Positions 1 to 64,000 of a stretch of DNA of 64,000 bases are shown piece after piece. The stretch spans positions 614,001 through 678,000 of the forward strand of contig JAYJMM010000020.1 of NCBI GenBank assembly GCA_037349105.1, in the 5' to 3' direction. The DNA comes from Limnomonas spitsbergensis (Eukaryota; Chlorophyta; Chlorophyceae; Chlamydomonadales). A program made the translations under genes and the position numbers. Each line of letters starts with the position of its first letter. Position 1 is the stretch's first letter. The notes beneath the pieces were generated by a model. That model saw nothing but the letters and a program-made list of their open reading frames with translations. It had not been told where the DNA came from and made no database searches.

Positions 1-1060
1 TTGCCTCCGTCACCACTCACATGTCTACTCCATCAAAACACTCATATTGTTTGCTTTGCCCCGGTTGCAGGTGACAGGACTGCTCATAACTGGCGGTGTG
101 TGCCTGGCCTCTGAGCCGCCTTAGAGTGGAGCGTTTGCAAACATATCTCCTCCTCTCACTCCACCCCTCCTCCACACCAAACACCCCTGTTGTCCCTCAA
201 CCCCCATCCTTTCACGCCCTGCCTCCGCCACCACTCACCTCTCTTCTTCATCGCATAGGTCGCAGGTGACGTTCATGAACTGGCGGTTTGTGGCTGGTGT
301 CTGAGTCACCCCAAGAGTGCTGTGGCGGTGAATATCTCACCTCCTCTAACTCCCTGCCTCGGCCGCCACTCACCTCTCTTCCCCATCAAATTACATATTT
401 TGCATTGCCCCGGTGGCAGGTAACCTGATTGATCATGAGCTGGCAGTAATTGGTGTGTCCCTGAGTCGCCTTAGACTCTCAGATTGCAGCTGCTGTGATC
501 ATCCCCTCCTCCTCTCACTCCCTGCATAACCCCTCTCACACCTATGTTGCATTGCCCCAGTGGCAGGTGACTTGACTGTCCATGAGCTGGCGACTGGGTG
601 GTCTCTGAGCTGGCTATGAGTGGAGTTTTTGTGAAGATCCCTGATCCCTCCTCCTCTCACTCCACCCCCCCTTAACAACTAACAATATTGCATAAAGGTA
701 AATTGAGTGCTTATGCGCTGGCAGTGGCTGGGTGGTATCTGAGCCGCCTCTGAGTGGAGATTTTGCAAACTCTCCTCCTCCTCTCACTCCACCCCCCCCC
801 CTCCATTACCACACATCCTTCTTCTCCACCGCCCCGATGGCAGGTGACTTGACTGCTAACGAGCTGGCGCTGTCTGGCTGGTCTCTGAGCCGCCTCAGAG
901 TGCGGCGGTTGTGAACACCCGCCCCCCTCCTCTCACACCCTTCATAACCCCTCTCATACCTTTGTTGCATCGCCCTGGTGGCAGGTAACTTCAGTGCTAG
1001 CGCACTGGCGGTGACTGGGTGGTCCCTGAGCCGCCTCATTTTACTCTATTTCATTTTTTA
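1..1060 (+). repeat. Decayed acceptor-side copies of the 1192 exon
   Basis: About seven copies, near 69, 250, 417, 565, 693, 840 and 981, resemble the start of the exon at 1192: an AG acceptor, then a GGTGAC-like start, then a stretch encoding HELAVTGWSLSRLR-like residues. They are spaced roughly 100-180 bp apart. Most carry indels or stops soon after the homology, so they look like duplicated exon-start debris rather than used exons. The copy at 840 still reads LTANELALSGWSLSRLR. Confidence 0.7.
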
Positions 1061-1191
1061 CTGAAGTTGAAATTACAATCTACTATCAGGTGCAGCAGCT
1101 GTGATACGCCCCTTCACCCCCCACTCCCTTCCTCTACCACCATACACCTGTCTTCTCCATCACCAAACACCATAATTGTTATTGGCTGTAG

Positions 1192-4100
1192 GTGACATGA
1201 CTGCTCATGAGCTGGCGGTGACTGGCTGGTCCCTGAGCCGCCTCCGAGTGGAGCGCTTGCCTGAGCGTGTGGAGAAGGCTTTCAGACGCTCGAGCGTGGC
1301 CAAGATCAAGGAGTTCACCAACCAGGGGCTGGGCAACATGTTGTGGTCGGTGGCCAGGTGGGGGACGGGGGGAGGAAGGAGCAGGGGGGGTGAGGCGAGG
1401 GAGAGAAAAGGTTTTCAGACGCTGGAGTGCGACCAGGATCAAGGAGTTCACCAACCAGGGGCTGGGCAACATGCTGAGGTCGGTGGCCAGGTGGGGGACG
1501 GGGGGAGGAAGGAGCAGGGGGGGTGAGGCGAGGGAGAGAAAAGGTTTTCAGACGCTGGAGTGCGACCAGGATCTAGGAGTTCACCAACCAGGGGCTGGGC
1601 AACATGCTGAGGTCGGTGGCCAGGTGGGGGACCGGGGGGAGGAAGGAGCAGGGGGGGTGAGGCGAGGGAGAAAAAGGTTTTCAGACGCTGGAGTGCGACC
1701 AGGATCTAGGAGTTCACCAACCAGGGGCTGGGCAACATGCTGAGGTCGGTGGCCAGGTGGGGGACGGGGGGAGGAAGGAGCAGGGGGGGAGGGGCAGGGT
1801 AAGGGGTCAAGTAGAGGGGAGGAAGACGGGGGTGGGAAGACAGAAAGTTGAGGGAGAAGGGTGGGAAAGGGGAGGGGGAAGGGGGGGGGGGGGGGGGGTT
1901 ACATTGCATGGAGAATATATCTCATGAGTTACTCCTGGGTGTAACGCTCGCCTGCATAACTCCCATGTGTAACATCCTCATGTGTAACCTCCTGCCCACC
2001 CCCCCCCCCTCACTGCTTACCATCTCCCCGTGTGTAACCTTCCCGTGCTTACCCCTCCCCACGCAACCTCCATTCCTCCCAGCCCTGTGAAAGGTCCACA
2101 TGCATACCCCCCGGTGTATCCCCCCTGTCTAACCCCCCTGCATAACCCCCCTTGCGCAACCTCCACGTGTGTACCCCCCCTGCGTAGCCTCCTTATGTGT
2201 AACCTCCTCATGTGTTACCTCCTCATGTGTAGCCCCCTGTGAATCTTCCCTGCATGACCTCCATGTGCAACCCCTTGTGGAACCCCCCCTGTGTAACCCC
2301 CCCTGTGTAACCTCCACTTTCGAACCCCCTCCTTCCTGCAGGATCATGCGCCGTGGTACAGCCTCATGTTTACCCCCCCCCCCCTGTGTAACCCCCCCCT
2401 GTGTAACCTCCACTTTCGAACCCCCTCCTTCCTGCAGGATCATGCGCCGTGGTACATCCTCATGTTTACCCCCCCCCCCCCCTGTGTAACCCCCCCTGTG
2501 TAACCTCCACTTTCGAACCCCCTCCTTCCTGCAGGATCATGCGCCGTGGTACAGCCTCATGTTTACCCCCCCCCCCCTGTGTAAACGCCCCGTGTAACCT
2601 TCCTGCGTAACCTCCACTTGTGTAACCCCTCCTTCCTGAAGGACCATGCGCTGTGGTACGCGGCAACACTGGATTCAGATTTGGAACTGCCTTGTAACCT
2701 TCCTGCGTAACCTCCACTTGTGTAACCCCTCCCTCCTGCAGGATCATGCGCTGTGGTACGCGGCAACACTGGATTCAGATTTGTAACTGCCCTGTGTAAC
2801 CTTCCTGCGTAACCTCCACTTGTGTAACCCCTCCTTCCTGCAGGATCATGCGCCGTGGTACGCGGCAACACTGGATTCAGATTTGTAACTGCCCTGTGTA
2901 ACCTCCCTGCGTAACCTCCCCTTGTGTAACCCCCTCCTTCCTGCAGGATCATGCGCCGTGGTACCTCCCCATGTTTACCCCCCCCCCACGCCCCGTGTAA
3001 CCTCCCTGCGTAACCTCCACTTGTGTAACCCCTCCCTCCTGAAGGGCCATGCGACGTGGTATGAGGAAACACTGGATTCAGATTTGTAACCGCCCTGTGT
3101 AACCTTCCTGCGTAACCTCCACTTGTGTAACCCCCTCTCCTTCCTGAAGGACCATGCGCCGTGGTACGAGGTTACACTGGATTCGGATTTGTGCGGTGGA
3201 GGTGTACAGACGGATCCATCTAATGAGCGCGGTGGATCTGACACAGGTGTGGACTAGTGTGGACTGGGGAGGACAAGGTACAGACATGAAGAGTGAAATT
3301 GTGTCGGCAAGGTGTACAGACGGATCCATCTAATGAGCGCGGTGGATCTGACACAGGTGTGGACTAGTGTGGACTGGGGAGGACAAAGTACAGACATGAT
3401 GAGTGAAATTGTGTCGGCGAGGTGTACAGACAGATCCATCTAATGAGCGCGGTGGATCTGACGCAGGTTTGGACCAGTGTGGATTGGGGACGACGGGGGC
3501 GGGATTAGGTGTGGACTGGAGTTGGACAAAGTTTAGACATGAAGTGTGAAAGTGTGTCGCGGTGGTGTAAAGCCAGGTCTAACTCACGAATACGGTGGTA
3601 TGAACATGGGTGTGAACATGGGTATGGACATGGGTGTGAACTGGTGTACAATGGGACTGGGTCGGGTTTGAGCAGTACATGAGAACGTCTACATTTCCCC
3701 TTCCCTAGTCCCTACCTGTTTAACCCCCCTCCCCCCTGCCTTCCCCCTATTAGTCAATGTGGGTGCAGGCCAAGCTCGACCACAACCCCCCTTCCCTACC
3801 CACTTAACCACCTCCCCCCCCCTCCCCCTCCCCCTCCCCCTCCCCCCCTCCCCATCCCCCTCCCCCTCCCCCCCTCCACCTCCACCCCCCCCCCCCTCCT
3901 CCTCCCCCCCTCCCCTGCCAGCTTGTAGGCGATATGGGCGCTGGCTAAGATGGACCACACACCCCCTCCCCGATTCAATCATGTCCCCCATCCCCCCTGC
4001 CAGCTTTCAGGCGATCTGGGCGCTGGCTAAGCTCAACTTCATCCCGCTGTGTGCTGTTGCGGCTGCCCCCCTAACCCCCCCCCCTAACCCCTCCCTACCC

Positions 4101-7100
4101 GTTTCAACCTGTCCTTAGCATCCCTCCACCATACTGCCTCCCCCTGATTAGGCCATATGGGCGCCGTCTAAGATGGGCTATATCCCCCTCCCCCTCTCCC
4201 CCCTGACCCTGGATGCCCGCCTCAGTCCCCTACCACCCCCCTCCCCTCTCCTCCCTATCTGCTTCACCCCCCCCCCCCTCCTCCCCTACTATTTGCAAGG
4301 CCATTCGGGCGCTGGCGAAGATGGGTTATATCCCGCCTCGTGCCGCTGTGGCTACCCACCTCACCCATCACCCCCAACCCTCCTTACCCCTCACCCCTCA
4401 CCCCTCTACTTTCCCCCTCTCTCTCCCTACCCGTTTCAATATTTTCCGCAACATCGCTACCCCCGTTTCCTGCCCCCTGTCAGGCCATATGGGCGCTGGC
4501 GAAGATGGGCTACCTCCCGCATCGTCCTGCTGCGGCTAACTGCCCCAAATCCCCTTCCCCCTCTCCCCCCTCCCTATCCTTTTCAATCCTCTCCTTTATC
4601 TCCCCCCCCACCCCCTGCCTGCCCGCTACCAGGCCATATGGGCGCTGGCGAAGATGGGCTACATCCCGCCTCGTGCCGCTGCCACTGCGTTGGAGGCGCG
4701 TGTGTTGGTCTTGCTGCCATCAATGCAACCGCAAGCGCTAACTGGCACGCTGCACTCGATGGCATGGATGGGGATTGTCCCTAGCAAGCAATTCCTGCTG
4801 GTCAGTATGGGAGCAGCTGGAGGGTGGGGACGGGGGGGGTGGGGGTAATGTGTTTGAGGCGAGGGGAGCAGAGGGGGAGGGAAAGAGGAGACTGCGTTGG
4901 AGGCAAGTGTTTCGGTCCTATTGCCCTCAATGCCCTGACGGACATGTTGCACTCCATGGCCTGTATGGGCAAGGTCCCTATCAAGCAGTTCCTGTTGGTG
5001 AGTATGGAAACAGAGGGAGGGGGGGGGGGGGGCGGATAATGTGTCTGAGGCGAGGGGAGCAGGGGGGGGGAGGGGGTGCTGAGTTAGAGGCACGTGTGCC
5101 CTCAATGCAGCCCCAGTACCCGGCCAGCATGTTGCACTACATGGCCTGTATGGGCATGGTCCCTATCAAGCAGTTCCTGCTGGTGAGTAGGCAGGGGGGT
5201 AGGGGGAGAGAAGGGGGAGGAGGAAGGGGAGGAGGAGGGGGAGGAGGAGGGGGAGGAGGAGGGGAGGAGAGGGGGGGGGAGGGGGGGGGAGGGGGAGGAG
5301 GAGGGGGAGGAGGGGGAGGAGGGGAGGAGGATCATGATAACGCTAGTTATGTGGGACCCATTTAATACAACTCCTCCCATCACAAATTGGGCTTATAAAT
5401 CCTAGGGTGCACCAGTAACCCCTCATGTAACTCCTAGGGTGCACCAGTAACCCCTCATGTTACACCTAGGGTGCACCAGTAACTCCTCACGTTACACCTA
5501 GGGTGCACCAGTAACTCCTCATGTAACTCCTAGGGTGCACCAGTAACTCCTCATGTAACCCCTAAGGTGCACCAGTAACTCCTCATGTAACTCCTAGGGT
5601 GCACCAGTAACCCCAAGCAGTAAGAGGTTTTTGCATGGTCCTCGTACGCCAGGAAGGCTTTACCTCGAACCCCCCCCTATGGGGTAAAGCCTTTCCCAAG
5701 AAGAGGGGGGTACCCCAAGAACAGGGGGGGGGGGCAAGCAAGGGGGGTACCCCTCATGTAACTCCTAGGGTGCACCAGTAACTCCTCATGTTACTCCTAG
5801 GGTGCACCAGTAACTCCTCGTGTAACTCCGAGGGTGCACCAGTAACTCCTCATGTAACTCCTAGGGTGCACCAGTAACTCCTCGTGTAACTCCTAGGGTG
5901 CACCAGCAACTCCTCATCTAACTTCTAGGGTGCACCAGTAACTCCTCATGTAACTCCTAGGGTGCACCAGTAACTCCTCGTGTAACTCCTAGGGTGCACC
6001 AGTAACCCCTCATGTAACTCCTAGGGTGCACCAGTTACTCCTCGTGTAACTCCTAGGGTGCATCAGTAACTCCTCGTGTAACTCCTAGGGTGCACCAGTA
6101 ACTCCTCGTGTAACTCCTACGGTGCACCAGTAACTCCTCATGTAACTTCTAGGGTGCACCAGTAACTCCTCATGTAACTCCTAGGGTGCACCAGTAACTC
6201 CTCGTGTAACTCCTAGGGTGCACCAGTAACCCCTCATGTAACTCCTAGGGTGCACCAGTTACTCCTCGTGTAACTCCTAGGGTGCATCAGTAACTCCTCA
6301 TGTAACTCCTAGGGTGCACCAGTAACCCCAAGCAGTAAGAGGTTTTTGCATGGTCCTCGTACGCCAGGAAGGCTTTACCTCAAACCCCCCCCTATGGGGT
6401 AAAGCCTTTCCCAAGAAGAGGGGGGTACCCCAAGAACAGGGGGGGGGGCAAGCAAGGGGGGTACCCCTCATGTAACTCCTAGGGTGCACCAGTAACTCCT
6501 CATGTTACTCCTAGGGTGCACCAGTAACTCCTCATGTAACTCCTAGGGTGCACCAGTAACTCCTCGTGTAACCCCTAGGGTGCAACAGTAACTCCTCATG
6601 TAACTTCTAGGGTGCACCAGTAACTCCTCATGTAACTCCTAGGGTGCACCAGTAACTCCTCGTGTAACTCCGAGGGTGCACCAGTAACTCCTCATGTAAC
6701 TCCTAGGGTGCACCAGTAACTGCTCGTGTAACTCCTAGGGTGCACCAGCAACTCCTCATCTAACTTCTAGGGTGCACCAGTAACTCCTCATGTAACTCCT
6801 AGGGTGCACCAGTAACCCCAAGCAGTAAGAGGTTTTTGCATGGTCCTCGTACGCCAGGAAGGCTTTACCTCGAACCCCCCCCTATGGGGTAAAGCCTTTC
6901 CCAAGAAGAGGGGGGTACCCCAAGAACAGTGGGGGGGGCAAGCAAGGGGGGTACCCCTCATGTAACTCCTAGGGTGCACCAGTAACTCCTCATGTTACTC
7001 CTAGGGTGCACCAGTAACTCCTCGTGTAACTCCTAGGGTGCACCAGTAACTCCTCATGTAACTCCTAGGGTGCACCAGTAACTCCTCGTGTAACTCCTAG

Positions 7101-11160: not shown

Positions 11161-14100
11161 CTACGCCTGGCTGACCGTGGGGTCCCGGTAGGTCATGAAC
11201 ACGTTGGCGATGTCTGTCATGCACTCCGGGGTAAGGTCCTTGTCGAAGGCTCCGATGTTCTCCTTAAGCTGCTCCAATGACGTGGCACCAATAATGGAGG
11301 AGGCCACAAACCACCTGCAAGGGGGAACCATGTATATCGGTAACCCGTTTTAATTTAAAAATTGCTTATATATAAGACATGCACTCTGGGGAAAGGTCCT
11401 TGTTGAAGGCACCAATGTTCTCCTTGAGCTGCTCCAATGACGTGGCACCAATCAGGGAGGGTCATCGGCCAAAGGAACATGGTATTCTTTACCATCCGCC
11501 ATATTTAGCGATCGGCGACCTTGTATACATTTTCACCTTATATAATATTATTTGACATTATATGATGTTATTTTAAAATTAACGATGCCTTATTTAAGGT
11601 GCCGACAAAACTCATTTAAGGTACCGCCGCCGCACCATATTGCTTACATGTCGGATTGTCTGGTGGCCGCCGAACTGTAGTCGAGGCATCCGAATATATA
11701 CTGCCCCTCCCACCTGCTTTTGCACCAAGACAAAGATCTACTTCCCCACCTCCCATAGTCCCATTGCCCATGCTTGTTGGCCAGCTTTCAGGGCCTGTTA
11801 TATCATCATGTGGCAGCCAAACTGTACTTCCAGCATCATACATACTTCCCCCCCCACCTGCTTTTGCACCAAGACAAAGATCTACCGCCCCACCTCCTGT
11901 TGCCCATGCTGAAATCCTGACCCCCCCCACCTGCTTTTGCACCAAGACAAAGATCTACCGCCCCACCTCCTGTTGCCCATGCTGAAATCCTGACCCCTCC
12001 ACCTGCTTTTGCACCAAGACAAAGATCTACCGCCCCTCCTCCTGTTGCCCATGCTGAAATCCTGACCCCCCCCACCTGCTTTTGCACCAAGACAAAGATC
12101 TACCGCCCCACCTCCTGTTGCCCATGCTAAAATCCTGACCCCCCCCACCTGCTTTTGCACCAAGACAAAGATCTACCGCCCCTCCTCCTGTTGCCCATGC
12201 TGAAATCCTGACCCCCCCCACCTGCTTTTGCACCAAGACAAAGATCTACCGCCCCTCCTCCTGTTGCCCATGCTGAAATTCTGACCCCCCCCACCTGTTT
12301 TTGCACCAAGACAAAGATCTACCGCCCCACCTCCTGTTGCCCATGCTGAAATCCTGACCCCCTCCACCTGCTTTTGCACCAAGACAAAGATCTACCGCCC
12401 CACCTCCTGTTGCCCATGCTGAAATCCTGACCCCCTCCACCTGCTTTTGCACCAAGACAAAGATCTACCACCCCACCTCCTGTTGCCCATGCTGAAATCC
12501 TGACCCCCTCCACCTGCTTTTGCACCAAGACAAAGATCTACCGCCCCTCCTCCTGTTGCCCATGCTGAAATCCTGACCCCCCCCACCTGTTTTTGCACCA
12601 AGACAAAGATCTACCGCCCCACCTCCTGTTGCCCATGCTGAAATCCTGACCCCCCCCACCTGCTTTTGCACCAAGACAAAGATCTACCGCCCCACCTCCT
12701 GTTGCCCATGCTGAAATCCTGACCCCTCCACCTGCTTTTGCACCAAGACAAAGATCTACCGCCCCTCCTCCTGTTGCCCATGCTGAAATCCTGACCCCCC
12801 CCACCTGCTTTTGCACCAAGACAAAGATCTACCGCCCCACCTCCTGTTGCCCATGCTGAAATCCTGACCCCCTCCACCTGCTTTTGCACCCAGACAAAGA
12901 TCTTCCGCCCCACCTCCTGTTGCCCATGCTGAAATCCTGACCCCCTCCACCTGCTTTTGCACCAAGACAAAGATCTACCGCCCCACCTCCTGTTGCCCAT
13001 GCTGAAATCCTGACCCCCTCCACCTGCTTTTGCACCAAGACAAAGATCTACCGCCCCTCCTCCTGTTGCCCATGCTGAAATCCTGACCCCCCCCACCTGC
13101 TTTTGCACCAAGACAAAGATCTACCGCCCCACCTCCTGTTGCCCATGCTGAAATTCTGACCCCCCCCACCTGTTTTTGCACCAAGACAAAGATCTACCGC
13201 CCCACCTCCTGTTGCCCATGCTGAAATCCTGACCCCCTCCACCTGCTTTTGCACCAAGACAAAGATCTACCGCCCCACCTCCTGTTGCCCATGCTGAAAT
13301 CCTGACCCCCTCCACCTGCTTTTGCACCAAGACAAAGATCCACCACCCCACCTCCTGTTGTCCATGCTGAAATCCTGACCCCCTCCACCTGCTTTTGCAC
13401 CAAGACAAAGATCTACCGCCCCTCCTCCTGTTGCCCATGCTGAAATCCTGACCCCCCCAACCTGCTTTTGCACCAAGACAAAGATCTACCGCCCCACCTC
13501 CTGTTGCCCATGCTGAAATCCTGACCCCCTCCACCTGCTTTTACACCATGACAAAGATCTACCGCCCCAACTCCTGTTGCCCATGCTGAAATCCTGACCC
13601 CCCCCACCTGCTTTTGCACCAAGACAAAGATCTACCGCCCCACCTCCTGTTGCCCATGCTGAAATCCTGACCCCCCCCACCTGCTTTTGCACCTAGACAA
13701 AGATCTACCGCCCCACCTCCTGTTGCACCAAAACAAAGATCTGCCGTCCCACCTGCTTTTACACCATGACAAAGATCTACCGCCCCACCTCCTGTTGCCC
13801 ATGCTGAAATCCTGACCCCCCCCTACCTGCTTTTGCACCTAGACAAAGATCTACCGCCCCACCTCCTGTTGCACCAAAACAAAGATCTGCCGTCCCACCT
13901 GCTTTTACACCATGACAAAGCCAGCTCTGTGGGGGTGAGGCCATGCTTGGTCGCCACGGCCGAGTAGTCTGCAATGGCCGATTTTACCTGACATTTTAGG
14001 GGTCACCAAATCAGCATGTGCGCGTCCAGAATCACAAGCATCTCCATCCATACATTATGCTGCATTAGGGGATGCAAGGACAAAGGCATGAAATATATAC

Positions 14101-17100
14101 GTCAGTGCCGAGTATACTGCAATGGCCGATTTGACTTGCAACCACATGGGTCGACCAAATCAGAATGCAAACGACTGGAATCACAGGCAACTCAATCCAC
14201 ACATTAGTATAAGGGGGTGTTAGGACACGTATGCAAAAGAACCGCCACTGCCGAGCAGTCCACAATGGCCGATGTAACATGAAACAAACAACAGAGCCAA
14301 GCGAATGGGATGCAAGGACACGCATGCAAATAAACCGCGAGTAGCATTGAGGACAAAGTCAAACCATTGACCGGGCTGGCGCTGTACCGCCCCATGGGGA
14401 ACAGGTTGAGACGGGATCTGGGGTTTAGGGCTTAAGGTCAAAAGGTCAAAACCCAAAAAGTCAGCACCGCTCACCAGGCTGGCGCTGTACCGCCCCATGT
14501 AGCCGGGGAACAGGTTGAGACGAGATCCGGGGTTTAGGGCTTAGGGTCAAAATGTCAAAACCCGAAAAGTCAGAACTGCTCACCAGGCTGGCGTTGTACC
14601 GCCCCATGTAGCCGGGGGACAAGTTCTCCAGTGAAGCGCGCTTTGGCTGAACACTAAATGCATTTCTCATTTGCGGAGACAAACAAGCCTACGGTAGGTT
14701 ATGAATGCTTCAAGGAAAAAAGTCAGCACCGCTCACCAGGCTGGCGCTGTACCGCCCCATGTAGCCGGGGAACAGGTTGAAACGGGATCCGGGGCTTGCC
14801 TTGCCGTCGTTGTACTTGTTGCTCAAACTGAATAAAAAGAACATGGTGGCATTGCGTTCAGTTTCATTGACACTTTGTAAATAAAGACATGCTCGGAGTA
14901 TTTTGCCTCTGGGTGAGCCAGCCACCGGCCACCCTATGCCCCAAACCCTTAACCCTTTAGTTTGGCTCATAGTGAGCCAGCCACCTGACCGGCACACACC
15001 AGCGTGTATTGGGGTGGCACCATGAGGACTTGACCCACAAAAACATCTTCCGAGCCAACAGACAGGATACTGAGATTAGCGTTTAGGCTCCCAACTGGGG
15101 GAGCCCTGGCTGCTCTCAACTGGGGGAGCCCTGGCTGCTCTCAACTGGGGAGCCCTGGCTGCTCCCAACTGGGGGAGCCCTGGCTGCTCTCAACTGGGGG
15201 AGCCCTGGCTGCTCCCAACTGGGGGAGCCCTGGCTGCTCCCAACTGGGGGAGCCCTGGCTGCTCCCAACTGGGGGAGCCCTGGCTGCTCCCAACTGGGGG
15301 AGCCCTGGCTGCTCCCAACTGGGGGAGCCCTGGCTGCTCTCAACTGGGGGAGCCCTGGCTGCTTCCAACTGGGGGAGCCCTGGCTGCTTTCAACTAGGGG
15401 AGCCCTGGCTGCTCCCACCTGGGGGAGCCCTGGCTGCTCTTAGACTCCTTGCTAGTCCTCGTTGCCTCCTCACAGGAACATGTTTGTCCATCTAGAGGTG
15501 GCTGTCAGGCTCACGTTCCGAGTGTCCACCTGTACACACCAACGTGTATTGCGGTGACATGGTTTGTTCTCACCTCCCCCCCGCCAGGGGTGAGTAGGCT
15601 ATCAGGCCCACGTTTGGAGTTCCCAACCGACTACCGGTACGTACCAGTATGTTTTGCTGTGGACGGCAAGGTTTGTTCTCACCTCCCACCAGCCAGAGGT
15701 GAGTAGGCTAGTAGACTGCCTTGTCTCCTCAACTCTCACAACTCCCATGGGGCGTAGCAAACTTAACCCTACCCTTCACTGTTCCCTGCTCCCTTGCTGT
15801 CTCTTCCTTCCTGGGCCAAGATTGCTGTAGCATGGTTTGTTCTTACCTCCCTCCAGCCAGAGGTGAGTAGGCTAGCAGGCCAACGTTGTGCTTCCGGCAC
15901 GTCTCCGCCAGATCCGTCTCGTAAGGCATGCGCACCTGCGCGGTGGATTTACAAGTAATTCAAAACGAGGTATGACTGACTAATTCGAACTGCCAGATCC
16001 GTCTCATAGGGCATACGCACCTGGAGGGTGGAAACAAGTGCGCCTGGTGACCAGGGGCTGGACTAAAAGGATTTCGACAGGGTTTCATAAAGGTTCCATC
16101 TGCAAGGATTATACCGGTAAGGATACAAACATGAATGAACAGGTTTCAAAGTTCAAACTGTGTCAAGAAGGGGTTTTCAAACCATGGACAGACCGCTACC
16201 CACTATTTTGGACGGTTCTGAAGTGATTCATACTTTTTAGCTGTTTTATAATGTTTATGACATGATCTTGGCGTGTTTGAGGCTTGCATCTAGTGAACCA
16301 CGGCCAGCCTAACGCTTTCTTGAAATATCCAGATGAGATCCCTTACAAGCAGGTTGCAACTGTTTTGGAATGACACATTATTGGGTAAGTAAGCGAGCAG
16401 CACCCAGTGAACAACAGCCAGCAAAATGCCCCCCTTTGCACTTCCTATGCTAACAGACCCTCCTTACAATCATGCTGCAGCTGTTTTGGATGGACACAAT
16501 CTTGGGCAGGTTTGTGAGCTGCGCCTGGTGAAGGAACTACGAACAACATACTGCCCCTCCCCTCCTAGAAGGACATAACACCCCCCCTTTGACTACAAAG
16601 ACTCCCTGCTTACAATCATGCTGTAGCTGTTTTGGATGGACACGATCTTGGGCAGGTTTGCGAGCTGTGCCTGGTGGACGAACTCGCACACGCCGTAGCT
16701 TGTCTCATTGCTCACTCCGATGTGACGCACCTGCAACCATCAGGAAAGGGCAAGCTGATAAATATATTTATTACTTGGTCTCATTCCCGACTCCAATATG
16801 ATGCACCTGCAAACATCAAAAGGCAAGGAAAGGGTATGCTGAGACATTTATTGAAAGCTAGTTTCATTTAGCAACAGAGATACAGCTACATGCTCGCGCC
16901 CAAATATGAATTATGCCATAGCTTGTCTCGTTGCTGAACCCGATGTGGCGCACCTGCAACCATCAGGCAAGGAAAGGGAGGGCGCATGCTGATATGTATA
17001 TATAAATGTATATATATTGATTTAGCAGGGAGGGCACAATAAAATGGCGCAATAAAAAGGCTCAAGCTATATCTCCAAGAGGCGGATCCCTCATTCCCCT

Positions 17101-30864: not shown

Positions 30865-31041
30865 CAACAACATACTGCCATGCAGCGGCTGTTCGACTAA
30901 CAGCTGCTGACTAGAAAATACGATTTCCCCCAGCAAAGAATGTGTTCCCCAGCCATGTTCCGATATCAGAAATAACCAACTCACTCTGGCCTGGCTCTTG
31001 CTGCTCTCGCCTCCAGGGAACAAGTTGTCTTTCAGTTTGCC

Positions 31042-51393: not shown

Positions 51394-54300
51394 ATGTCCT
51401 TCCCCGTCTTGGATATAGTGGACCCGTCGCCCCCTTGCCAGCCCGCTGTTGCCGAGGTGGCCAACCCGATGGACGCCCTGGACGATAACCTGCTCTCGCA
51501 CACGCTCTCGTTCCTCGACGCCCCCTCGGTGCGCATACCTGCAGTAGCATTATTCACACATGCAGGATGAAAAGTTATGTATACTACTGCAGATTCAGAA
51601 CCGTGGCTCGAAGTCCCCCCGGCCCGACACAGCACACCTCATCTTCTATCCAATATTCCAATCCACAGCACCAGCGCCAGCACGACATGGCATCCCACAT
51701 CACACACCTCCCAAATGCCCCACTCGCATTCCGTTTCGATTTCAACAAGAATCACGAAATGCCATCCATGTTTCATGACGCAGATCGGCTCGGCGGCATG
51801 CACCGGGAAGCTCTTGAAGGACGCCTCAGCACAGCCTGACTTGTGGCAGACGCTGTGGAAGCGCGACTGCCAGTCCGTTTCCCGGCACTTCCCAGAACCC
51901 GATCAGGTAGGATTCAAGACTCAGCCTACAGGGGATATCCTGGCTGTGGGGTCAAGCCCTTGGCCGCTTAAGCCATGGCAGGAGCGGAGAACAGGAGTCC
52001 ATGTCCCCAGCAAAGTCACCAATCAGACCGGCACTTCCAAGAGCCTGAGCAGGTAAAGTGAACGGCCGAGCTTTTAAGATGCAGCCTGGCTGTGGGGTTA
52101 AGCCCTGACAAGGGCAGAGCGATACAACCCATGCCCCCAGCCAGCCAGCCAACAGGTGGCATGGCACTTCACTGTTCCAAGAGTAGGAGGAGACATGGGT
52201 GAAGGTCGAGAAGGCAGGCTGTGGGGTCGGGCTCTAGCAGGCATTTTTGTATTGGCAGCCAGGCGTATAGGCTGCTGAGTTCAGCTATGACGGGGGTGTG
52301 AGCCTGTGAGCCAACCGAGGCGACACGGATAGGCGCAGTGGCACATCCCACCCACGTCACTTGAGCTGGTCGGCACAGTGGCATATGATGAAGCCAGGTA
52401 TTGTGATGGACTGACCACCCCTGTCCCCTGCTGCCCTTCCGTATTGATATGGTCCAGGTGCAGGTCTTGAAGAACGCGTGATCAACACTATCTTATACTG
52501 CCTCTTCCCACTTGCTGCCCTTCCGTTGTAGTGTGGTCCAGGTGCAGGACTGGAAGAATCTGCGATCAACACTCTCATATACTGCCTTTTCTCCCTTGCT
52601 GCCCGTCCGTTTTGATATGGTCCAGGCGCAGGACTGGAAGACCACTGCGATCAACACTCTCTTATACTGCCTTTTCTCCCTTGCTACCCGTCCGTTTTGA
52701 TATGGTCCAGGCGCAGGACTGGAAGACCACTGCGATCAGCACTCTCTTATACTGCCTATTTTCCCTTGCTGCCCTTCCGTTTTGATATGGTCCAGGCGCA
52801 GGACTGGAAGACCACTGCGATCAACACTCTCTTATACTGCCTATTCTCCATTGATGCCCGTCCGTTTTGATATGGTCCAGGCACAGGACTGGAAGACCAC
52901 TGCCATCAACACTCTCTTATACTGCCTATTCTCCCTTGCTGCCCTTCCGTTTTGATATGGTCCAGGTGCAGGACTGGAAGACCACTGCGATCAGCACTCT
53001 CTTATACTGCCTATTTTCCCTTGCTGCCCTTCCGTTATAGTGTGGTCCAGGTGCAGGACTAGAAGACCACTGCGATCAACACTCTCTTATACTGCCTATT
53101 CTCCCTTGCTGCCCTTCCGTTTTGATATGGTCCAGGTGCAGGACTAGACGACCACTGCGATCAACACTCTCTTACACTGCCTATAGCACCCTATATAACA
53201 CCCTCTTACAGCTGACCATGCCTTGAATCACCCTCCCCCCCTGCTGCCTGCCTGCTGTTAGTGTGATCCAGGTACATGACTGGAAGACCACTGTGAGGAG
53301 AGGTCTGCTTCTCTCCCTGCTACCCACTCCCTGACCATGCCTTGAATCACCTCCCCCCCCTGCTGCCTGCCTGCTGTTGGTGTGGTCCAGGTACATGACT
53401 GGAAGACCACTGTGAGGAGAGGTCTGCTTCTCTCCCTGCTACCCACTCCCTGACCATGCCTTGAATCACCTTCCCCCCCCTGCTGCCTGCCTGCTGTTGG
53501 TGTGGTCCAGGTACATGACTGGAAGACCACTGTGAGGAGAGGTCTGCTTCTCTCCCTGCTACCCACTCCCTGACCATGCCTTGAATCACCTCCCCCCCCT
53601 GCTGCCTGCCTGCTGTTGGTGTGGTCCAGGTACATGACTGGAAGACCACTGTGAGGAGAGGTCTGCTTCTCTCCCTGCTACCCACTCCCTGACCATGCCT
53701 TGAATCACCTTCCCCCCCCTGCTGCCTGCCTGCTGTTGGTGTGGTCCAGGTACATGACTGGAAGACCACTGTGAGGAGAGGTCTGCTTCTCTCCCTGCTA
53801 CCCACTTCCTGACCATGCCTTGAATCACCTTCCCCCCCCTGCTGCCTGCCTGCTGTTGGTGTGATCCAGGTACATGACTGGAAGACCACTGTGAGGAGAG
53901 GTCTGCAACTGGCTGAGCTTGGAAATGGGAAATGGGAGCGCGTACGACAGAGCCAGGTGTGTGTGGACCGTCGATGCTTTTTCTAAGCTTGTTTAATGCA
54001 TCATCGGACAGAGGACATGGGAGTGTGTCCGGCAGTGCCAGGTATGTTTTCATGTTTTGTCTTCGCTAGGTTGATATTTGTAATGGAAATGGGAAATGGG
54101 GTGCGTACTCCATAGCCAGGTGTGGATGGCTGTTTAGGCTGCCGGCATAGGGGGCCTACACAACCCCATATGGTGAATTGATCGCCGACAGTGATGCATG
54201 GCCGAAAAGGTTTTCACTGCCTGCCTCCCACAGGGTTAATGGCTTAGGACCTTAAGCCTTATCCCTAGACCCTACACCCTACACCCTGAAAGACCTGAAC

Positions 54301-57300: not shown

Positions 57301-60300
57301 GACAGCGCGGGAAGCCAGTGGGTAGTTCTGCCTTGTAGCACCCATGTGTGTGTATGTGTGTCAGTGTCGGTGTCGGAAAAACAAGTTAAGTGGCTGCCAG
57401 CTCTTTAGGGTTGAGAGTTAGGATCAAACATATAAGGTTAAGGGTTTAGATCAATCATATAAGGTGTTGCAGCACTTACGTTTGTCTGCTCTTTTCCTGT
57501 TGGCTGGTGCAAGGAGCCACCCTAAACCCTTAAACCTTAACCCTTAATGCTTAACCCTTAACCCTAATGCATGAATTCGGCCTCAGCCCTGCACCTCCAT
57601 ACTCAATCCTTGATTTCTGAATCTTTAACCCTTAACCCTTAACCCTAATGCATGAATTCGGCCTCAGCCCTGCACCTCCATACTCAATCCTTGATTTCTG
57701 AACCCTTAATGCTTAACCCTTAACCCGAATGCATGAATTCGGCCTCAGCCCTGCACCTCCCTACTCAATCCTTGATTTCTGAACCTTTAACCCTTAACCC
57801 TTAACCCTAATGCATGAATTCGGCCTCAGCCCTGCACCTCCATACTCAATCCTTGATTTCTGAACCCTTAATGCTTAATCCTTAACCCTAATGCATGAAT
57901 TCGGCCTCAGCCCTGCACCTCCATACTCAATCCTTGATTTCTGACCCTCAGGGTCCCTGAAGCCTAATAAACCACAGGCGCTGTTTCATCAACCTGCCCT
58001 GTTTCCTTCACCTCCACGCCCTTGTAGGGGTTGACTGTGAAAGGTTTGGGGGTTAGGGCGTAGATTTCTTAGCGTTCTTTCTTACGCCGCAGGGGCTTGG
58101 CCTCAACTTCAACTTTTAACCTCCATTCCCGAATCTTTATATTTCTCAACCCAAATTTGCTTCAGGGAACGCGGGGAGTGTGGACGAGCCTGAGGAGCGC
58201 CTGGGGTCTGACTACGAATGGTGAGGCCATTGTGTGTACCGTGTCACACTTTCCACACACTGGTCCACACTTCACTGGGAACTGGGGAGTGTGGACGAGC
58301 CTGATGGGCGCCTCGGGTCGCACTTAACTGGGAAGCGGGGAGTGCTGACAAGCCTGGAGTCCCACTACAGACACTGAGGTCGTTTTTTTCATTGGTCCAC
58401 ACTTTTCCCATGTGCCTCTGAGCATTCTGTCCGCACGGACTAAATGGCGAGTTGCTCAATCTCAGCCCCTCTCCCTCATCCTCCCACATCGCTCTTTCCC
58501 CTATGCCCCAGGCATTACCCATTTTAACTCATTATTCCTCATCCTCCCTCCCTGCTTCCCCAGGCATCATCCAAAGCTGTCTGGAGATCCTCCGGCCAGG
58601 AGAGGGTACCACTCTGCCTGCGCCCCTGAACTCGGTGTCTGCGCGGATTGAATGGCCAGCTGCTCACCCTCAGCCCCTCCCACATCCCTCTCCCCCCCTG
58701 TACTCCAGGCACCACCCAAAGCTGTCTGGAGATCCTCCAGCGAGGAGAGGGTATCACTCTGCATGCGCATCAGAAGATGGAGTCCGTGTGTTTGTGTTCG
58801 GAGGCATGGCTCAGAGCGACTGCTGTAACACGCTGGCAGGTGTGAACGGACTAGTTGGGAGGGGGGGGGGGGCATATGTTGGACAAGGGGGAAGGGGTCA
58901 CTAAAAATCTGAGCTTTTTGAAAGTCAAAAAGTACCAAGCACTGTAAGATGAAGGTTTGCCCAAATCCTTCAAATAAGCACTGGCTCTGTCCCAAGCTGC
59001 TACGCTCTTTCAACTGTTGCAACCCCCGTTCACTTGCTTCAAAATTCTGAGCCCTAGTTTTAAATTGATATTTTTGAGTGATTGATGTGGAGATAGAGAC
59101 GTGTGAGGTGCCCACCACCACTTGAATGGCTCTGTCCCCAAGCTGCTGCTAAACCCTTGTTTTCTTGTATGGCTTTCAGTGATTGATGTGGTGAAAGAGA
59201 CGTGTGAGGTGCCGACCACCACTGGATTGGCGCCAGAGGCGCGCTTCGGTTGCTCGCTTGCTGTGTACAACAACAAGCTATGGGTGGTGAGGTCATGGTG
59301 TTGCAAATGCTGTTGCTTTTGTTGCATGCTCGCTTGCCGTGTACGGCAACAAGCTATGGGTGGTGAGTTCATGGTGTTGCAAATGTTGTTGCTGTTGTTG
59401 CATGCTCGCTTGTCGTGTACGACACCAAGCTATGGGTGGTGAGGTCATGGTGTTGCAAATGCTGTTGCTGTTGTTGCATGCTCGCTTGTTGTGTACAACA
59501 ACAAGCTATGGGTGGTGAGGTCATGGTGTTGCGGGTGCGTGTTGCGCGGTGTTACAGTTATGGGTGCGTGTTGTTGCTGTTGTTGCGGGTGTGCTGTTGT
59601 TGCAGGTAGGTGCTGTCGCTGCTGTTGCGAAGGAGGTTGAATAAGGAGGGGGGGAAATCACTCTGAAGGACGGTTGAAGACCGATATCCGAAGTCCTCAT
59701 TTGTGTAGTTTGGAGGGGCCTTGGCCAGGACGTGGCCCTCTGGATGGGGGGGGGATAGTTTGAAATGTAATAATTCGACCTGTGAGGGGGGTATGTTTAC
59801 ATGTGTCATGCTTACAGAGTGGAGGGGGCCACGGCCACGATTTGGCCCGGCCAGGGGTGAAAAAAAAATGGAATACATTGCTCGACCTAAAATGCTGTTT
59901 CCCAATTTTGCATGCTTACAGATCGGAGGGGGCCACGGCCACGACCTTGCCCGCTCAAGCTATGTCATGCATTTATTTCATAAGCTCGCAAGACCTCAAA
60001 TACTGATTCCCAATTGTTCATGCTGACAGATTGGAGGGGGCCACGGCCACGACCTGGCCCGCTCAGGCTATGACCTGCATGATGTCCACTGCTTGGATCT
60101 GGCCACATGGGAGTGGCAGCAGCCAGCCCTTGCCAACAAGCCGCGAGACACAAGGTACGGGTGTGTGTGGGGGGTGGGTAATGTATACAGTTCATGTACT
60201 GCCATGGTACTGCGTATACATGGTTCCTTGGGAGTGGTAGCAGCCAGCCCTCGCAAAAAAGGCACAAGACACGAGGTACTGGGATATGTGTACTGCACCT

Positions 60301-63219
60301 GTACTGCATTTTCATGGCGACATGGGAGTAGCAGCAGCCAGCCCTCGCCAACAAGCCACGAGACACTAGATTATGGGTGGTATGTGTTTTGTGTACTGGA
60401 CAGGCGTAATGCATCACACTTCCCTTTATTCAAATGAATGATTTGTGTACCGTCATTGATGTGTGATTTGGGCATTGTCATACATCACACTTCCATGTCA
60501 CTCTTACTGGATAGCTTGCGTACAGTCATTGATGTGTGATTGGGGCATTGTCACACGTCACACTTCCATGTCACTCTTACTGGATAGCTTGCCTGCAGTC
60601 ATTGATGTGTGATTGCGGCAATGTCATGCATCACACCTCTTCCACCACTGCTTGAGGAGTACTGGCATTACGAGCAGCAGGTGTTTGAGTAATTACACTG
60701 ATGTGTGACGAGGTGCCCTGGTCACTGTGCACATCGAGCTACTTCAGTGCATCCACCTTTGCCTCAGTATTATCACTAATAATTGAGTAATATTACTGTT
60801 TTGTTACCAGGGGTCTGGGCCGCTGTCACGCGTCACACCTCTTATGTTCCTGTTTGAGTAACATTTGTTACATGTGTTAACTTGAGTAATTCCACTGTTG
60901 TGTGACCAGGTGTCTGGGTCGCTGTCATGCGTCGCACCTGGTGGGCCACAAGCTCGTCATGTTTGGAGGTGGGAGGACACACGCCGTTTATGTTTTAGGT
61001 TTTAGGGTTTGGAGGTGGGTGGACACACGCCGTTAAGGGTTCAGGGTTTAGGGTTTGGAGGTAGGTTTACTCACGCTGTTTTGGGTTTAGGGTTAAGGGT
61101 TTGGAGGTGGGTGGACTCACGCCGTTTTGGGTTTAGGGTTAGGGGTTAAGGGTTTGGAGGTGGGTGGACTCACGCCGTTTGGCTCTTTTGGCTTATCCGG
61201 AAAAGATAAGGGTGCTTGCGTCAATCATGTCATGAGGTGGGTAGAAACGCATAGGTTTGCACTGGATAGTTGGCTCACGGCACTCTGCACTCAGCGCACG
61301 TTGGGCTGGCACTTGATAGTTGGCTCTGCCTTACCCTTTCGACAAAGGCTGAGGGTGTTGTGCTCATCTTGCAGCAGGATATCAAAGTGGGTTGACACAC
61401 GCTGTTTGGCTCTGCTCAGCCCTTTCAAAATGGGTGAGGGTCATTATGATCCCCGGTGCCCTGCCAAGATCCACCCCCATTGGCTATCCACCGCACCAAC
61501 ACACTTTCCCTTGAGTCCCAGGCAGCCTGCCGCTTGGCGACAGAACAACCGACCTGGACCTTGCCACGCTGACGTGGGGTCAAACCAGATCCATCGGGTG
61601 CCCGTCACTCTCCACAATTTATTCATCATTTACATTGCACCTGTTTCTATTGATCCCAGGCAGCCTGCAGCTGGGCAACAGTGTCACGTACCTGGACCTG
61701 GCCACGCTGACATGGGGCCGACCCATCGCCATCGGGGATGCACCACATCGACGCATGTCAGCTGTCATGGCGCTCGTGGGCTCCCAGCTCTATGTGTATG
61801 GCGGTTGGATCTACTCAAAAGGAGAGGTGTGAATCTTTGGAGGTGTGGATCTCTAGCTGTAAACATTAAACCACTACCATATGCAAGCCAGCTGCCAAGA
61901 CGCTCTTGGGCTCTCAGCTGTATGTGTATGGCGGCTGGGTATACTGGCAAGGAGAGGTGTGAATCTGTAGCCGTGAACCCTAAACCACCAACATAAGCCA
62001 GCCAGCTGTGATGGCCTTGGTGGGCTCTCAATTGTATGTGCACGGCGGCTGGATCTTCTTGGAGATGTGTGAAAGATGAACTCTAAAACTGCAGCCCTAA
62101 ACCGTCACCTGGGGCATGTCAGCCGTGATGGCGTTGGTGGGATCCTTGCTATATGTGGAACGGCGGCTGGGTCTACTTGCAAGGAGGTGTATGAACCCTC
62201 AATCATAATCCCTAGACACTTGACCCTAATTCATCATCTGGTGGTATCAGCTGTCATGGCGCTAAGCTTGATGTGCCCGGCGGCTGGATATAGATATATT
62301 CACTAAGAGAGGTGGGGAAACCCTTGACCATAATTCTGCAACTGCAGTGCTCCTTGGTTCATCTCCTCCTCCTCTGCACCTTCCTCGCCTGCTTGCTCAG
62401 TGCGTCATGCACTCACGTCCTCCTCTTCCCCCTAATTCCAGATGGGAGATCTTCACAAGTTTGAGCTGTTTCTGGAGAGCAAAGATGATAAGGAGAGGGT
62501 GGCTGTAGCAGCACAAGAGGATGCAATGGCCAGGACAGCAGCTGGTGAGTCACTAAGGCCTGGCAGAGGGTGGGCAGGGAGAGGGAGAGGGAGGGGGGGG
62601 GGGGGGGGTGGAGGAGGGGGGAGGGGGTCCTAGCAACCCAAGAGGATGCAATGGCCAGGACAGCAGCTGGCGAGGCCTGACTGAGGGGGGGTGGGGCGTT
62701 TTGCCCTCCACATTCCATCACATCCTACTTGCACCTACAGGCTGTGCGGCCGATCATCTCCAACATATGTGGGTCTGGCCCCTTGCTGCGCTTTTCTACT
62801 TTACTCTCCCTCGCTTTCTGCTTGCGTCAGCAGGCTCTGCAGAAAATTATCTCCAACATATGTGGGTATGGCCCCTGGCTGCGCTCTTCTTTTCATTTCC
62901 CCCCTCTGGGTGCTTGCGTCAACAAGCTCTGTGGCCGATACCCTCCTCTTAGACAGATGTGGCTCTGGCCCCTTGCTGTGCTCTTCTCTCTCTCGCTTGC
63001 TGCTTGCACCTACAGGCTGTGTATCCGATTATCTTCAACATCCGTGGTTCTGGCCCTCTTGCTGTACTTGCTGCGCTCTTCACTTCACTCCCCTCGCTTC
63101 CTTCTTGCACCTTCAGGCCCTTCAGCTGATCCTTCTGCCTCTGATGGGGAGGAAGAGGAGGAGGGGCAAGTCGGAGGCCGGCAAGGGGACTTGAACACAG
63201 CCATGGCCTTGTACAACAG
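51394..63219 (+). CDS. F-box/kelch-repeat protein (15 visible exons, 3' end outside window)
   Basis: Exons: 51394-51528, 51784-51906, 53870-53956, 54339-54408, 55114-55231, 56107-56165, 57200-57298, 58166-58220, 58709-58839, 59180-59286, 60030-60154, 60910-60968, 61660-61826, 62442-62544, 63117-63219. All are GT-AG and phase-matched, giving at least 513 residues. Residues about 26-75 are an F-box (MDALDDNLLSHTLSFLDAPS, then LWQTLWKRDC), which would bind Skp1 in an SCF ubiquitin ligase. Six kelch motifs follow, suited to a six-bladed propeller for substrate binding: GHAAASWGTESMILFGG, GHSVTRCGRSGDMLFVYGG, YHSACASEDGVRVFVFGG, GCSLAVYNNKLWVIGG, CHASHLVGHKLVMFGG, MSAVMALVGSQLYVYGG. After the propeller comes an acidic segment (DGEEEEEG). 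The substrate is unknown. Exon 57200-57298 fits by phase but reads a poor kelch sequence and is the weakest. Confidence 0.87.
51990..52370 (+). repeat. Donor-side copies of the 51784-51906 exon
   Basis: Copies near 52025-52060, 52165-52190 and 52350-52385 resemble CGGCACTTCCCAGAACCCGATCAG and its GTA donor, each more decayed than the last. Confidence 0.6.
52430..53200 (+). repeat. About 85-bp minisatellite of an acceptor-exon junction
   Basis: Nine units, each with GATATGGTCCAG, then GTGCAGGACTGGAAGACCACTGCGATCA. They repeat the acceptor and first codons (V(H/Q)DWKTT) of the 53870 exon. Period is 83-86 bp. Confidence 0.85.
53205..53869 (+). repeat. About 120-bp tandem copies up to the 53870 exon
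   Basis: Five units plus the true junction (GGTACATGACTGG near 53270, 53391, 53511, 53629, 53749 and 53869), almost identical. Each has a CT-rich tract, a CCAG acceptor and VHDWKTTVRRGL-coding sequence; only the last continues into the full exon. Confidence 0.9.
53990..54900 (+). repeat. Edge copies around the 54339-54408 exon
   Basis: 54010-54050 and 54085-54125 copy the end of the preceding exon with its donor. 54470-54505, 54575-54615, 54665-54705 and 54770-54815 copy the GGGGACAGAGAGCATGATCCTGTTCGGAGGTCAGT end of the 54339 exon. Confidence 0.75.
55000..55600 (+). repeat. Edge copies around the 55114-55231 exon
   Basis: An acceptor-side copy at 55000-55055 (CAGGTTTGGGTGGAGGCATCCGACATGACACC) precedes the exon. 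Two donor-side copies (about 55350-55400 and 55500-55550) repeat the end encoding FKPTGRPPVI with a GTAAGG-like or altered donor, inside G/A-rich DNA. Confidence 0.75.
55920..56340 (+). repeat. GTTGCTG-rich tract before, and donor copy after, the 56107-56165 exon
   Basis: 55950-56100 is a trinucleotide-rich (GTT/GCT) stretch that reaches the acceptor. 56230-56280 repeats CTCGATG.GGAAGGAG.GGGGACATGTTGT with GAGGTAAGG. Confidence 0.75.
56500..57110 (+). repeat. Acceptor-side copies of the 57200 exon
   Basis: Four units near 56535, 56682, 56935 and 57070 have T(T)C(A/G)GGGATGCAATGTGG and some following sequence. In them the frame DAMW..L.GDCL is open; in the true exon the phase-fitting frame is a different one. 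Confidence 0.7.
57490..57955. repeat. About 80-bp tandem repeat with telomere-like part
   Basis: Five units of CTTAACCCTTAACCCTAATG, GCATGAATTCGGCCTCAGCC and CTCAATCCTTGATTTCTGAA. No coding meaning is seen. Confidence 0.88.
58240..58700 (+). repeat. Edge copies between the 58166 and 58709 exons
   Basis: 58275-58330 and 58332-58365 copy GGGGAGTGTGGACGAGCCTG. 58561-58650 is a near-perfect acceptor-side copy of the 58709 exon, with acceptor CCCCAG, and stays open for 80 nt before a stop in frame. Confidence 0.8.
59075..59630 (+). repeat. Edge copies around the 59180-59286 exon, about 76-bp unit
   Basis: 59072-59130 copies the start (GATTGATGTGG.GA.AGAGACGTGTGAGG). Three downstream units (59327, 59402 and 59478) copy the end encoding LAVYNNKLWV with the GTGAGGTCATGG donor. 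Confidence 0.85.
59705..60375 (+). repeat. Edge copies around the 60030-60154 exon
   Basis: Acceptor-side units near 59725, 59812 and 59920 repeat ACAG, then (A/T)(T/G)(T/C)GGAGGGGGCCACGGCCACGA. Donor-side units at 60225-60280 and 60320-60370 repeat the part encoding QPALANKPRDT. Confidence 0.85.
60425..61180 (+). repeat. Edge copies around the 60910-60968 exon
   Basis: About five acceptor-side units (60480-60880) carry GTGTGA..(G/A)GG, then C..TGTCA(T/C)GCGTCACAC. Five donor-side units (60965-61180) carry TTTGGAGGTGGGTGGAC(A/T)CACGCCGTT, mixed with GGGTTTAGGG. Confidence 0.75.
61495..62320 (+). repeat. Edge copies around the 61660-61826 exon
   Basis: 61505-61590 copies the start (TCCCAGGCAGCCTGC...GACCTGGACCTTGCCACGCTGAC). 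Four downstream units (near 61885, 62000, 62120 and 62250) copy the end encoding SAVMALVGSQLYVYGGW with decaying GAGAGGTGTGA donors. Confidence 0.85.
62560..63110 (+). repeat. Edge copies around the 62442 and 63117 exons
   Basis: 62625-62680 copies the end of the 62442 exon (CAAGAGGATGCAATGGCCAGGACAGCAGCTGG). Four acceptor-side units (62735, 62830, 62920 and 63010) copy CA(C)CTACAGGC.GTG..GAT of the 63117 exon. Confidence 0.75.
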
Positions 63220-63359
63220 GTGGGATTGTGGTACATAGACCATGTAGTAAATCAAGTAGGACTGAAGTGCACGTGGTGTTGTACTCGATGTATGTTTGTA
63301 GTTCATGCAGTACATAATGTACTTCATGTGACAATGTACCACAGGTGAGGTTTTTTTAG

Positions 63360-64000
63360 GGGGGACCCAGGGGCCGTAGCGTCCCGCCACCATTGGCCCT
63401 CTCTCATCCCATATTTCCTTAAGCTGAGGAACCCGAAGGGGGCGCAGTGCCCTGCAACCACCCGCCCGCCCTTGTCCAATATTGCCTCATTACTGGACTG
63501 CTGGGCTGTGGCTTGATCAGGTGCGGCCGAAGTGCCGAGGCTGAGCACAGCGGTCTCCCCCCCCTCCCCCCCCCACACACACACCTCCGCTAGTGCACAT
63601 GCCCATACCCTCTTTTGACCTGTCCGAAACAACCTGATTAGAGGGGACTGGGATGCCCAGGCTGAGCACGACGGTGTTCCCCCGCCCCCCCCATACACCG
63701 GTACTAGTGCACATGCACTTACTCTTTTTCGACCTATCCGCCACAACCTGATTAGGAGCTACCAGGATGCCCAGATGGTGCATAACGGTGCGCCCCCCCC
63801 CACACACACACACCTCCGCTAATGTACATGCACTTACCCTCCTTTGACCTGTCCGCCACAACCGGATTAGGTGTGACTGGGATGAACAGACGAAGCACCG
63901 CGGTGTTCTTCCACCCACCTCCGCTAGTGCACATGCACATACCCTCTTTCGACCCATCCGCCACAACCTGATGAAGAGCGGTTAAGGTGACCAGGCTGAG
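63360..64000. repeat. About 110-bp tandem repeat running off the window end
   Basis: Units with CGACC(T/C)(G/A)TCCGCCACAACCTGAT, then GA.G..ACTGGGATGCCCAGGCTGAGCAC, at about 63615, 63728, 63843 and 63948. By analogy with the rest of the gene it may be acceptor-side copies of the next exon, but that exon is not visible. Confidence 0.7.

Follow-up and report, generated by a model that had tools for sequence, protein, structure and literature searches.

We analyzed a 64,000-bp stretch of the genome of Limnomonas spitsbergensis (contig JAYJMM010000020.1, positions 614,001 to 678,000; hereafter the window), in which exons are flanked by partial direct copies of their own edges. The host assembly comprises 260 Mb in 124 contigs, and protein matches identify the organism as a chlamydomonadalean green alga. 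Within the window we followed the copies in an aldo-keto reductase (AKR) gene on the minus strand, a kelch gene, and an OPR-like gene, and outside it in chaperonin and proteasome genes. Copies upstream of an exon hold its acceptor edge and copies downstream hold its donor edge, a two-sided polarity that a first-pass annotation of the sequence had described and that also held at the junctions with copies in the loci outside.

Exon-edge copies and their polarity

The AKR exons were defined by a splice-aware alignment, blind to repeats, of the C. eustigma, C. schloesseri, Gonium, and Coccomyxa proteins. Nine exons were found on the minus strand, from 19,977 to 11,170, and the four proteins concur except that one stops the last exon 6 nt earlier. 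Because the alignment ignores repeats, these exons were not picked via their copies. The closest relative of the AKR protein among the matches listed is that of Chlamydomonas eustigma (71% identity). A longer stretch aligned with two proteins added an upstream exon at 24,438-24,341, with which 19,977 becomes an acceptor; only this longer two-protein alignment fixes the acceptor of exon 19867-19977. Local copies span six of the nine acceptors and six of the nine donors of the ten-exon AKR gene, and three of six acceptors and three of six donors of the kelch gene. The exon ends proposed earlier at 19867, 19015, 14737, and 13899 are exact ends in the AKR model, and those proposed in other genes have no such support: independent proteins back the gene models of the window for AKR only, the kelch and OPR exons were read from the sequence, and the genes at 1192/4633, 40851, 45328, 48331, and 53870 are known from the first-pass reading alone.

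We scored a coordinate as spanned when a local direct copy crossed it and reached 10 nt or more beyond it in both directions (BLASTN, E ≤ 1e-3). Eleven of the 13 sites that had been listed as clear cases were spanned, and 40851 and 59180 failed. At ten of the 11 all copies lie on one side; the exception, 19867, has copies on both sides owing to a whole-exon duplication. The 20 gene models, two from the window and 18 from other loci, hold 127 non-redundant copies. All but two of these (125) are on the expected side, and the two wrong-side copies are the two edges of that single duplicated exon. Two large arrays contribute 55 of the 127 copies, and without them the polarity is 70/72.

The 18 other loci came from 19 gene regions fetched by Pfam family (chaperonin, proteasome), independently of repeats; L054 was excluded for matches that carry stop codons, and the three proteasome loci were hand-picked from 38 matches. 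Copies are present at 29 of their 208 splice junctions, all 29 with the same polarity. Eight of these loci form four pairs of diverged chaperonin paralogues of the HSP60/CPN60/CCT type (L044/L045, L048/L049, L050/L051, and L052/L053), with exons 75-92% identical and introns mostly unalignable, so that the exon edges follow from conservation. The eight account for 23 spanned junctions out of 128. The ten further loci (seven chaperonin, three proteasome) account for 6 of 80, at approximate edges taken from Pfam matches, a few of them without a clear AG or GT. The paralogue models omit, with their partners, L050 651-698 and 3854-3893 (the latter an old copy), L048 4378-4397, 4512-4579, 6133-6246, 510-1984, and 5605-5655, and L044 500-536 and 4713-4945, as well as the outer edges of first and last exons. 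These blocks held no convincing exon, and some true exons are therefore absent from the models and counted as intron.

The claim that introns are for the most part made of partial copies of the exon next to them was not confirmed. In the window genes only 16-17% of intron bases are homologous to the exon itself, 60-62% lie in some local copy, and 28-36% lie in a copy whose partner holds at least 12 nt of exon. The same figures in the 18 other loci are 5-6%, 23-24%, and 9-13%, and intron coverage by local copies there varies from about 0 (L039, L041, L043, L046) to 0.37-0.49 (L047, L058). Growth of introns by tandem duplication up to recent times is supported by arrays and pairs at 96-99% identity and by the paralogues: copies occur at 19 of 64 homologous junction pairs, and at 15 of the 19 just one paralogue has them, so that most detectable copies post-date the paralogue split or were lost in one member. 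At four junctions by the spanning test (five were compared) both paralogues have copies, which fits shared ancestry and recurrence alike.

Character and location of the duplications

Local direct copies cover 34,010 of the 64,000 bases of the window (53%), and no 4-kb bin is free of them (fractions 0.11-0.97). Most local pairs are direct, with 180 direct against 13 inverted in the 18 loci and 596 against 16 across the window. Our first histogram of unit lengths held nothing below 60 bp, a gap that we took to be caused by the way blastn handles matches near the main diagonal; the spanning counts therefore probably miss units shorter than about 60 bp. A recount by a separate scan gave 249 clusters, of which 126 have units of 70-149 bp (146 of 60-169 bp), 48 units of 10-49 bp, and 9 units of 50-69 bp. 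Unit lengths thus form two classes, at 10-49 bp and 70-149 bp. The arrays of highest copy number, from Tandem Repeats Finder (TRF), have 28 units of 73 bp, 94 of 32 bp, and 36 of 61 bp, and were probably expanded secondarily through slippage or unequal exchange.

Many copies retain the splice dinucleotides. In 72 copies, with the two large arrays set aside, AG is kept in 28/40 and GT in 23/32 (about 70%), or per base in 68/80 and 55/64 (85-86%). Mean copy identity is 0.84-0.86 in the exon part and 0.79-0.81 in the intron part. In these 72 copies decoy dinucleotides do not appear to be lost any faster than other bases, and decoy AG and GT persist at about neutral rates. With some 70% of decoys keeping the dinucleotide, its loss does not silence most of them.

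Table 1. Exons of the window, copies of their edges, and associated arrays
Feature	Position	Strand	Copies or units	Basis
Upstream AKR exon	24341..24438	-	acceptor edge, within 24898-24518	two-protein alignment, self-alignment
AKR exon	19977-19867	-	whole-exon duplication within 20317-19659, sole both-sided case	four-protein spliced alignment
AKR exon	19160-19015	-	acceptor 19309-19223 upstream; donor 18966-18775 and 18695-18641 downstream	four-protein spliced alignment
AKR exon	17980-17932	-	no edge copy at threshold used (self-alignment)	four-protein spliced alignment
AKR exon	17407-17339	-	acceptor 17666-17552 upstream; donor within 17270-17055 downstream	four-protein spliced alignment
AKR exon	16730-16614	-	acceptor 16972-16915 and 16852-16778 upstream; donor 16538-16458 downstream	four-protein spliced alignment
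AKR exon	15935-15847	-	acceptor 16032-15992 upstream; donor 15714-15666 and 15614-15548 downstream	four-protein spliced alignment
AKR exon	14827-14737	-	three donor-edge, downstream: 14625-14565, 14535-14455, 14426-14355	four-protein spliced alignment
Array after exon 14737-14827	14355..14625	-	109-bp units, decayed exon end plus donor	TRF, self-alignment
AKR exon	13987-13899	-	single acceptor-edge copy upstream, 14285-14107 (self-alignment)	four-protein spliced alignment
Array in intron after exon 13987-13899	11848..13872	-	73 bp, 27.8 units	TRF, self-alignment
AKR last exon	11314-11170	-		four-protein spliced alignment
Kelch exon	59180..59286	+	donor edge inside 76-bp array 59251-59532	Pfam Kelch, TRF, sequence reading
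Kelch exon	60030..60154	+	two acceptor copies within 59806-59972	Pfam Kelch
Kelch exon	61660..61826	+	acceptor copy 61505-61598; donor copies in 61840-62052	TRF
OPR-like exon	1192..1357	+	acceptor copies 11-138 and 349-471	identity inferred from sequence
Donor-edge array of OPR-like exon 1192-1357	1275-1789	+	133 bp x 3.9	TRF
OPR-like exon	4633..4800	+	acceptor copies within 3985-4533	read from sequence
Array with AG/GT acceptor-like edge at 53870	53212..53906	unassigned	120 bp, 5.8 units, 98% matches (TRF)	

Two arrays show how far the multiplication of an edge can go. The 73-bp array matches the last 22 nt of its exon plus the GT donor at 26 places, and in the 76-bp kelch array (3.7 units) the exon's own edge is the first unit. 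Outside the window, a chaperonin intron of L047 (local positions about 4790-7300) holds a donor-edge array of 29 copies with a period of about 83 bp, about 95% identical among those listed, and is a second case like the 73-bp array.

Several other features lie in the window. Three minisatellites contain no modeled exon edge: 5396-8440 (32 bp x 94), 38392-40607 (61 bp x 36), and 41312-42781 (38 bp x 39). TTTAGGG-like repeats are scattered at 20331-20540, 24261-24898, and 60961-61180, and the TTTAGGG-rich stretch 60,986-61,155 has similar arrays near the first bases of contigs 1, 2, and 104. An OPR/FAST-type repeat protein (30976-32910) is encoded in a single open frame of 645 aa with FAST_1 (four stretches) and DUF6832, unlike the OPR-like gene at 1-5000 with its many introns; its closest relative among the matches listed (31,033-32,910) is from Chlamydomonas sp. 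UWO 241 (38%). Kelch intron 1 holds a dispersed element of about 87 bp (58898-58985) with at least 31 genome matches at 78-89% identity on both strands. Two other copies that we read share extra sequence to the left, so the copy in the window may be a truncated longer element, a candidate short interspersed element (SINE), miniature inverted-repeat transposable element (MITE), or introner-like sequence.

Explanations for the two-sided pattern

We consider it likely that the pattern results from frequent short tandem duplication anywhere in the sequence, filtered by selection on exons. Segments of typically 70-150 bp would be duplicated locally and often in any type of sequence; duplications within exons would be purged by selection and those within introns tolerated. 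A duplication crossing an acceptor would yield two copies of the acceptor and exon start, and only the downstream copy would run on into the remainder of the exon; one crossing a donor would yield two copies of the exon end and donor, with only the upstream copy usable. The spare copy would become intron and decay, staying recognizable because the used copy is conserved, and repeated rounds would flank the exon with decoy-edge arrays on either side. No special mechanism is needed for the polarity, since a duplication crossing an acceptor leaves its spare upstream and one crossing a donor leaves it downstream. Judging by unit size and orientation alone, the duplications most likely arise when adjacent nicks or staggered breaks are repaired. 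Duplications are rare inside the exons of the first chaperonin models: in the eight paired loci, exon-interior points were spanned in 62 of 1600 cases and intron points in 266 of 1600. The pattern is unusual in degree and ordinary in logic.

We simulated genes in which duplications were placed uniformly and rejected if they altered the coding sequence, with and without small indels and the real dinucleotide composition. These simulations reproduced the polarity: 152 of 2172 simulated junctions with copies had a wrong-side copy, as whole-exon duplications give, and the two-sided pattern arose without any junction preference. In the chaperonin pairs the raw spanning rate was lower at exon edges (14/132) than at the random intron points, and our data do not show duplication to be centered on splice junctions, as the first-pass view had it. 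We dropped this depletion as a measure and used the ratio of junction to intron spanning instead: under uniform placement junctions should be spanned at only about half the rate of intron positions, which can serve both as source and as copy. Uniform simulations gave ratios of 0.49-0.73 (equilibrium, growth, several mutation rates); in 1881 uniformly simulated genes the ratio was 0.54, with sets of 18 genes ranging from 0.34 to 0.76. When 30, 60, or 90% of duplications were aimed at junctions, it rose to 1.24, 1.75, and 2.38 at low coverage and to 0.99, 1.18, and 1.48 at coverage near 0.5.

Several observations weigh against uniform placement or against simple tandem duplication. The 18 loci have a ratio of 0.85 (bootstrap 95% 0.64-1.10; 29 junctions for an exposure of 34.0), above the simulated 0.54 (P = 0.004) and between the uniform and 30%-aimed simulations. 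The window genes, AKR and kelch, which had been picked in the first place for showing the pattern, reach about 1.15 (18/30 junctions, intron coverage 0.52-0.53) and fit the 60%-aimed simulation (1.18 at coverage 0.52). Exon points are spanned nearly as often as introns in AKR (0.50 vs 0.52) and less often in kelch (0.29 vs 0.53); in AKR this may be explicable by short exons with copied edges plus the one whole-exon copy. Clear head-to-tail adjacency, for which the match had to reach 0.7 or more of the offset (median ratio 0.52), was found in 46% of 46 arrays at identity ≥80%, the copies being decayed. Longer offsets do not come with longer matches (rank correlation -0.28), and some of the copies may therefore be tandem only in part or may have lost bases. 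Among 13 candidate pairs, two were more than 98% identical, with apparent homology of 1 and 5 bp, and the breakpoints are too decayed for microhomology to be read. Copies also lack an age gradient away from the exon: the claim that the nearest copies are the most alike holds at only 12 of the 22 junctions with two or more copies, and the gradient expected if copies were always added beside the exon is absent or weak.

These ratios bear most directly on the possibility that R-loop edges, exon chromatin, or co-transcriptional breaks start duplications near exon edges, so that introns grow inward. The junction excess over uniform placement may be about 1.6-fold (0.85 vs 0.54), the ratios of the 18 loci and the window genes lie between the uniform and the 30-60%-aimed simulations, and spanning rates in AKR and kelch are high. 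However, the excess is small and sensitive to settings, the observed ratio ranging from 0.49 to 1.22 across 18 combinations of margin, E-value, and identity, with the null simulated for one of them. Just 9 of 204 matches near exon edges, a set that includes the two large arrays, end within 6 nt of the junction, which gives no indication of breaks at the exon/intron border as proposed before; no clear age gradient leads away from the exon, and duplications are plentiful across the whole window. Edge enrichment is thus modest at most, and simplifications in the simulation could also yield such an excess. Duplication may have a mild preference for junctions, and we regard a junction-linked origin as unlikely. 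Replication slippage or unequal exchange alone, with minisatellites arising anywhere, expanding, and in some cases crossing exon edges, would be compatible with duplication filtered by selection and has a small but real chance of being sufficient. It accounts for the high-copy arrays and for the two exon-edge arrays with 26 and 29 copies, but outside those two most edge copies are single or few and diverged, and slippage on short units would not be expected to give a mode at 70-150 bp with a dip at 50-69 bp. Slippage probably acts secondarily, to expand arrays.

The copies themselves argue against two functional or mobile origins. Splice dinucleotides are kept in many copies, as would suit alternative or mutually exclusive exons retained for function, but nearly all copies are partial, with a median exon part of 41.5 nt and one whole-exon duplication in the 20 gene models; the exon side decays too, and the dinucleotides are retained at about the rate of the surrounding bases. 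The copies are neither complete nor open and conserved exons, and we rejected this reading as very improbable. Introners or another mobile element carrying splice signals are known in some eukaryotes (PMC9860276), and kelch intron 1 does contain a dispersed element; the copies, however, are built from the edges of their own gene's exons and not from a family dispersed across genes, a content that makes such an origin extremely unlikely. Genome searches with two window regions outside the AKR gene, blind to simple repeats, gave no dispersed family for exon edges among the matches listed, which were the regions themselves, low-complexity and telomere-like sequence, and the kelch intron 1 element. 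The end of an exon of the OPR-like gene had one further match listed, at 82% on contig 37, probably a paralogue. We also discarded an origin from the repeats encoded in OPR genes, since AKR and chaperonin genes lack such repeats and still show the pattern, and rejected assembly error, the copies differing from one another (65-99% identical).

Duplication filtered by selection has relatives in the published work. The most frequent insertions in rice are tandem duplications, which are enriched at 50-200 bp, make up a smaller share above 125 bp, and are attributed to repair of adjacent nicks (PMC7971508), following the patch-mediated double-strand-break proposal (Vaughn and Bennetzen, 2014, as cited in PMC7407515 and PMC7971508). 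The algal copies are likewise direct, local, mostly within 50-200 bp (the 70-149 bp class, with the 10-49 bp class besides), and common in non-coding DNA; they differ in forming diverged stacks at splice junctions and elsewhere, compared here among paralogues only. Mouse cells turn staggered breaks with 3' overhangs into small tandem duplications via CST, Pol alpha-primase, and non-homologous end joining (PMC8355091), a demonstrated path from such breaks to such products, but one known from Cas9-nickase breaks, whereas the alga is known here from sequence alone. Internal gene duplications are described as ubiquitous (Gao and Lynch, 2009, as cited in PMC4974935) and similarly involve intragenic segments including exon-intron structure; they are cited for intron creation, whereas here existing introns gain copies and the modeled protein is unchanged. 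It is also accepted that introns can be gained through tandem duplication (PMC3443670, PMC4974935, PMC2891723). There, as here, the duplication supplies AG and GT sites, but an exonic AGGT segment is duplicated into a new intron, whereas our segments cross an existing junction and add decoys only: the counted copies hold at least 12 nt (at least 10 in the AKR self-alignment) of existing intron past the AG or GT. We found no description of two-sided exon-edge copies in the open-access literature as represented by the listed titles and beginnings of abstracts, a scope that leaves subscription papers outside. In the alga existing introns gain decoy edges while the modeled protein is kept; the earlier cases create introns or change proteins.

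Consequences for splice-site choice and intron growth

The same exon edge is present two to about thirty times per intron, and of these copies the protein depends on the one closest to the body of the exon; we infer that this exon-adjacent site is the one spliced. The survival of acceptor decoys deserves note, since AGs with similar intron surroundings precede the AG that the protein requires. In the strongest version, exon edges would be duplicated through transcription or splicing, introns would grow from both ends inward, and the spliceosome would choose the exon-adjacent site among near-identical decoys. We think this combination quite doubtful; if true, a simple first-AG scan would choose wrongly, and the alga would combine splicing-linked mutagenesis with strong exon definition.

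The ordinary reading, duplication anywhere filtered by selection on exons, still gives a clean natural experiment on splice-site choice, whether by exon definition, distance, or hidden elements. For gene finders and repeat maskers it is a caution that exon-like decoys with splice dinucleotides flank real exons. It also shows a route by which introns lengthen without transposons.

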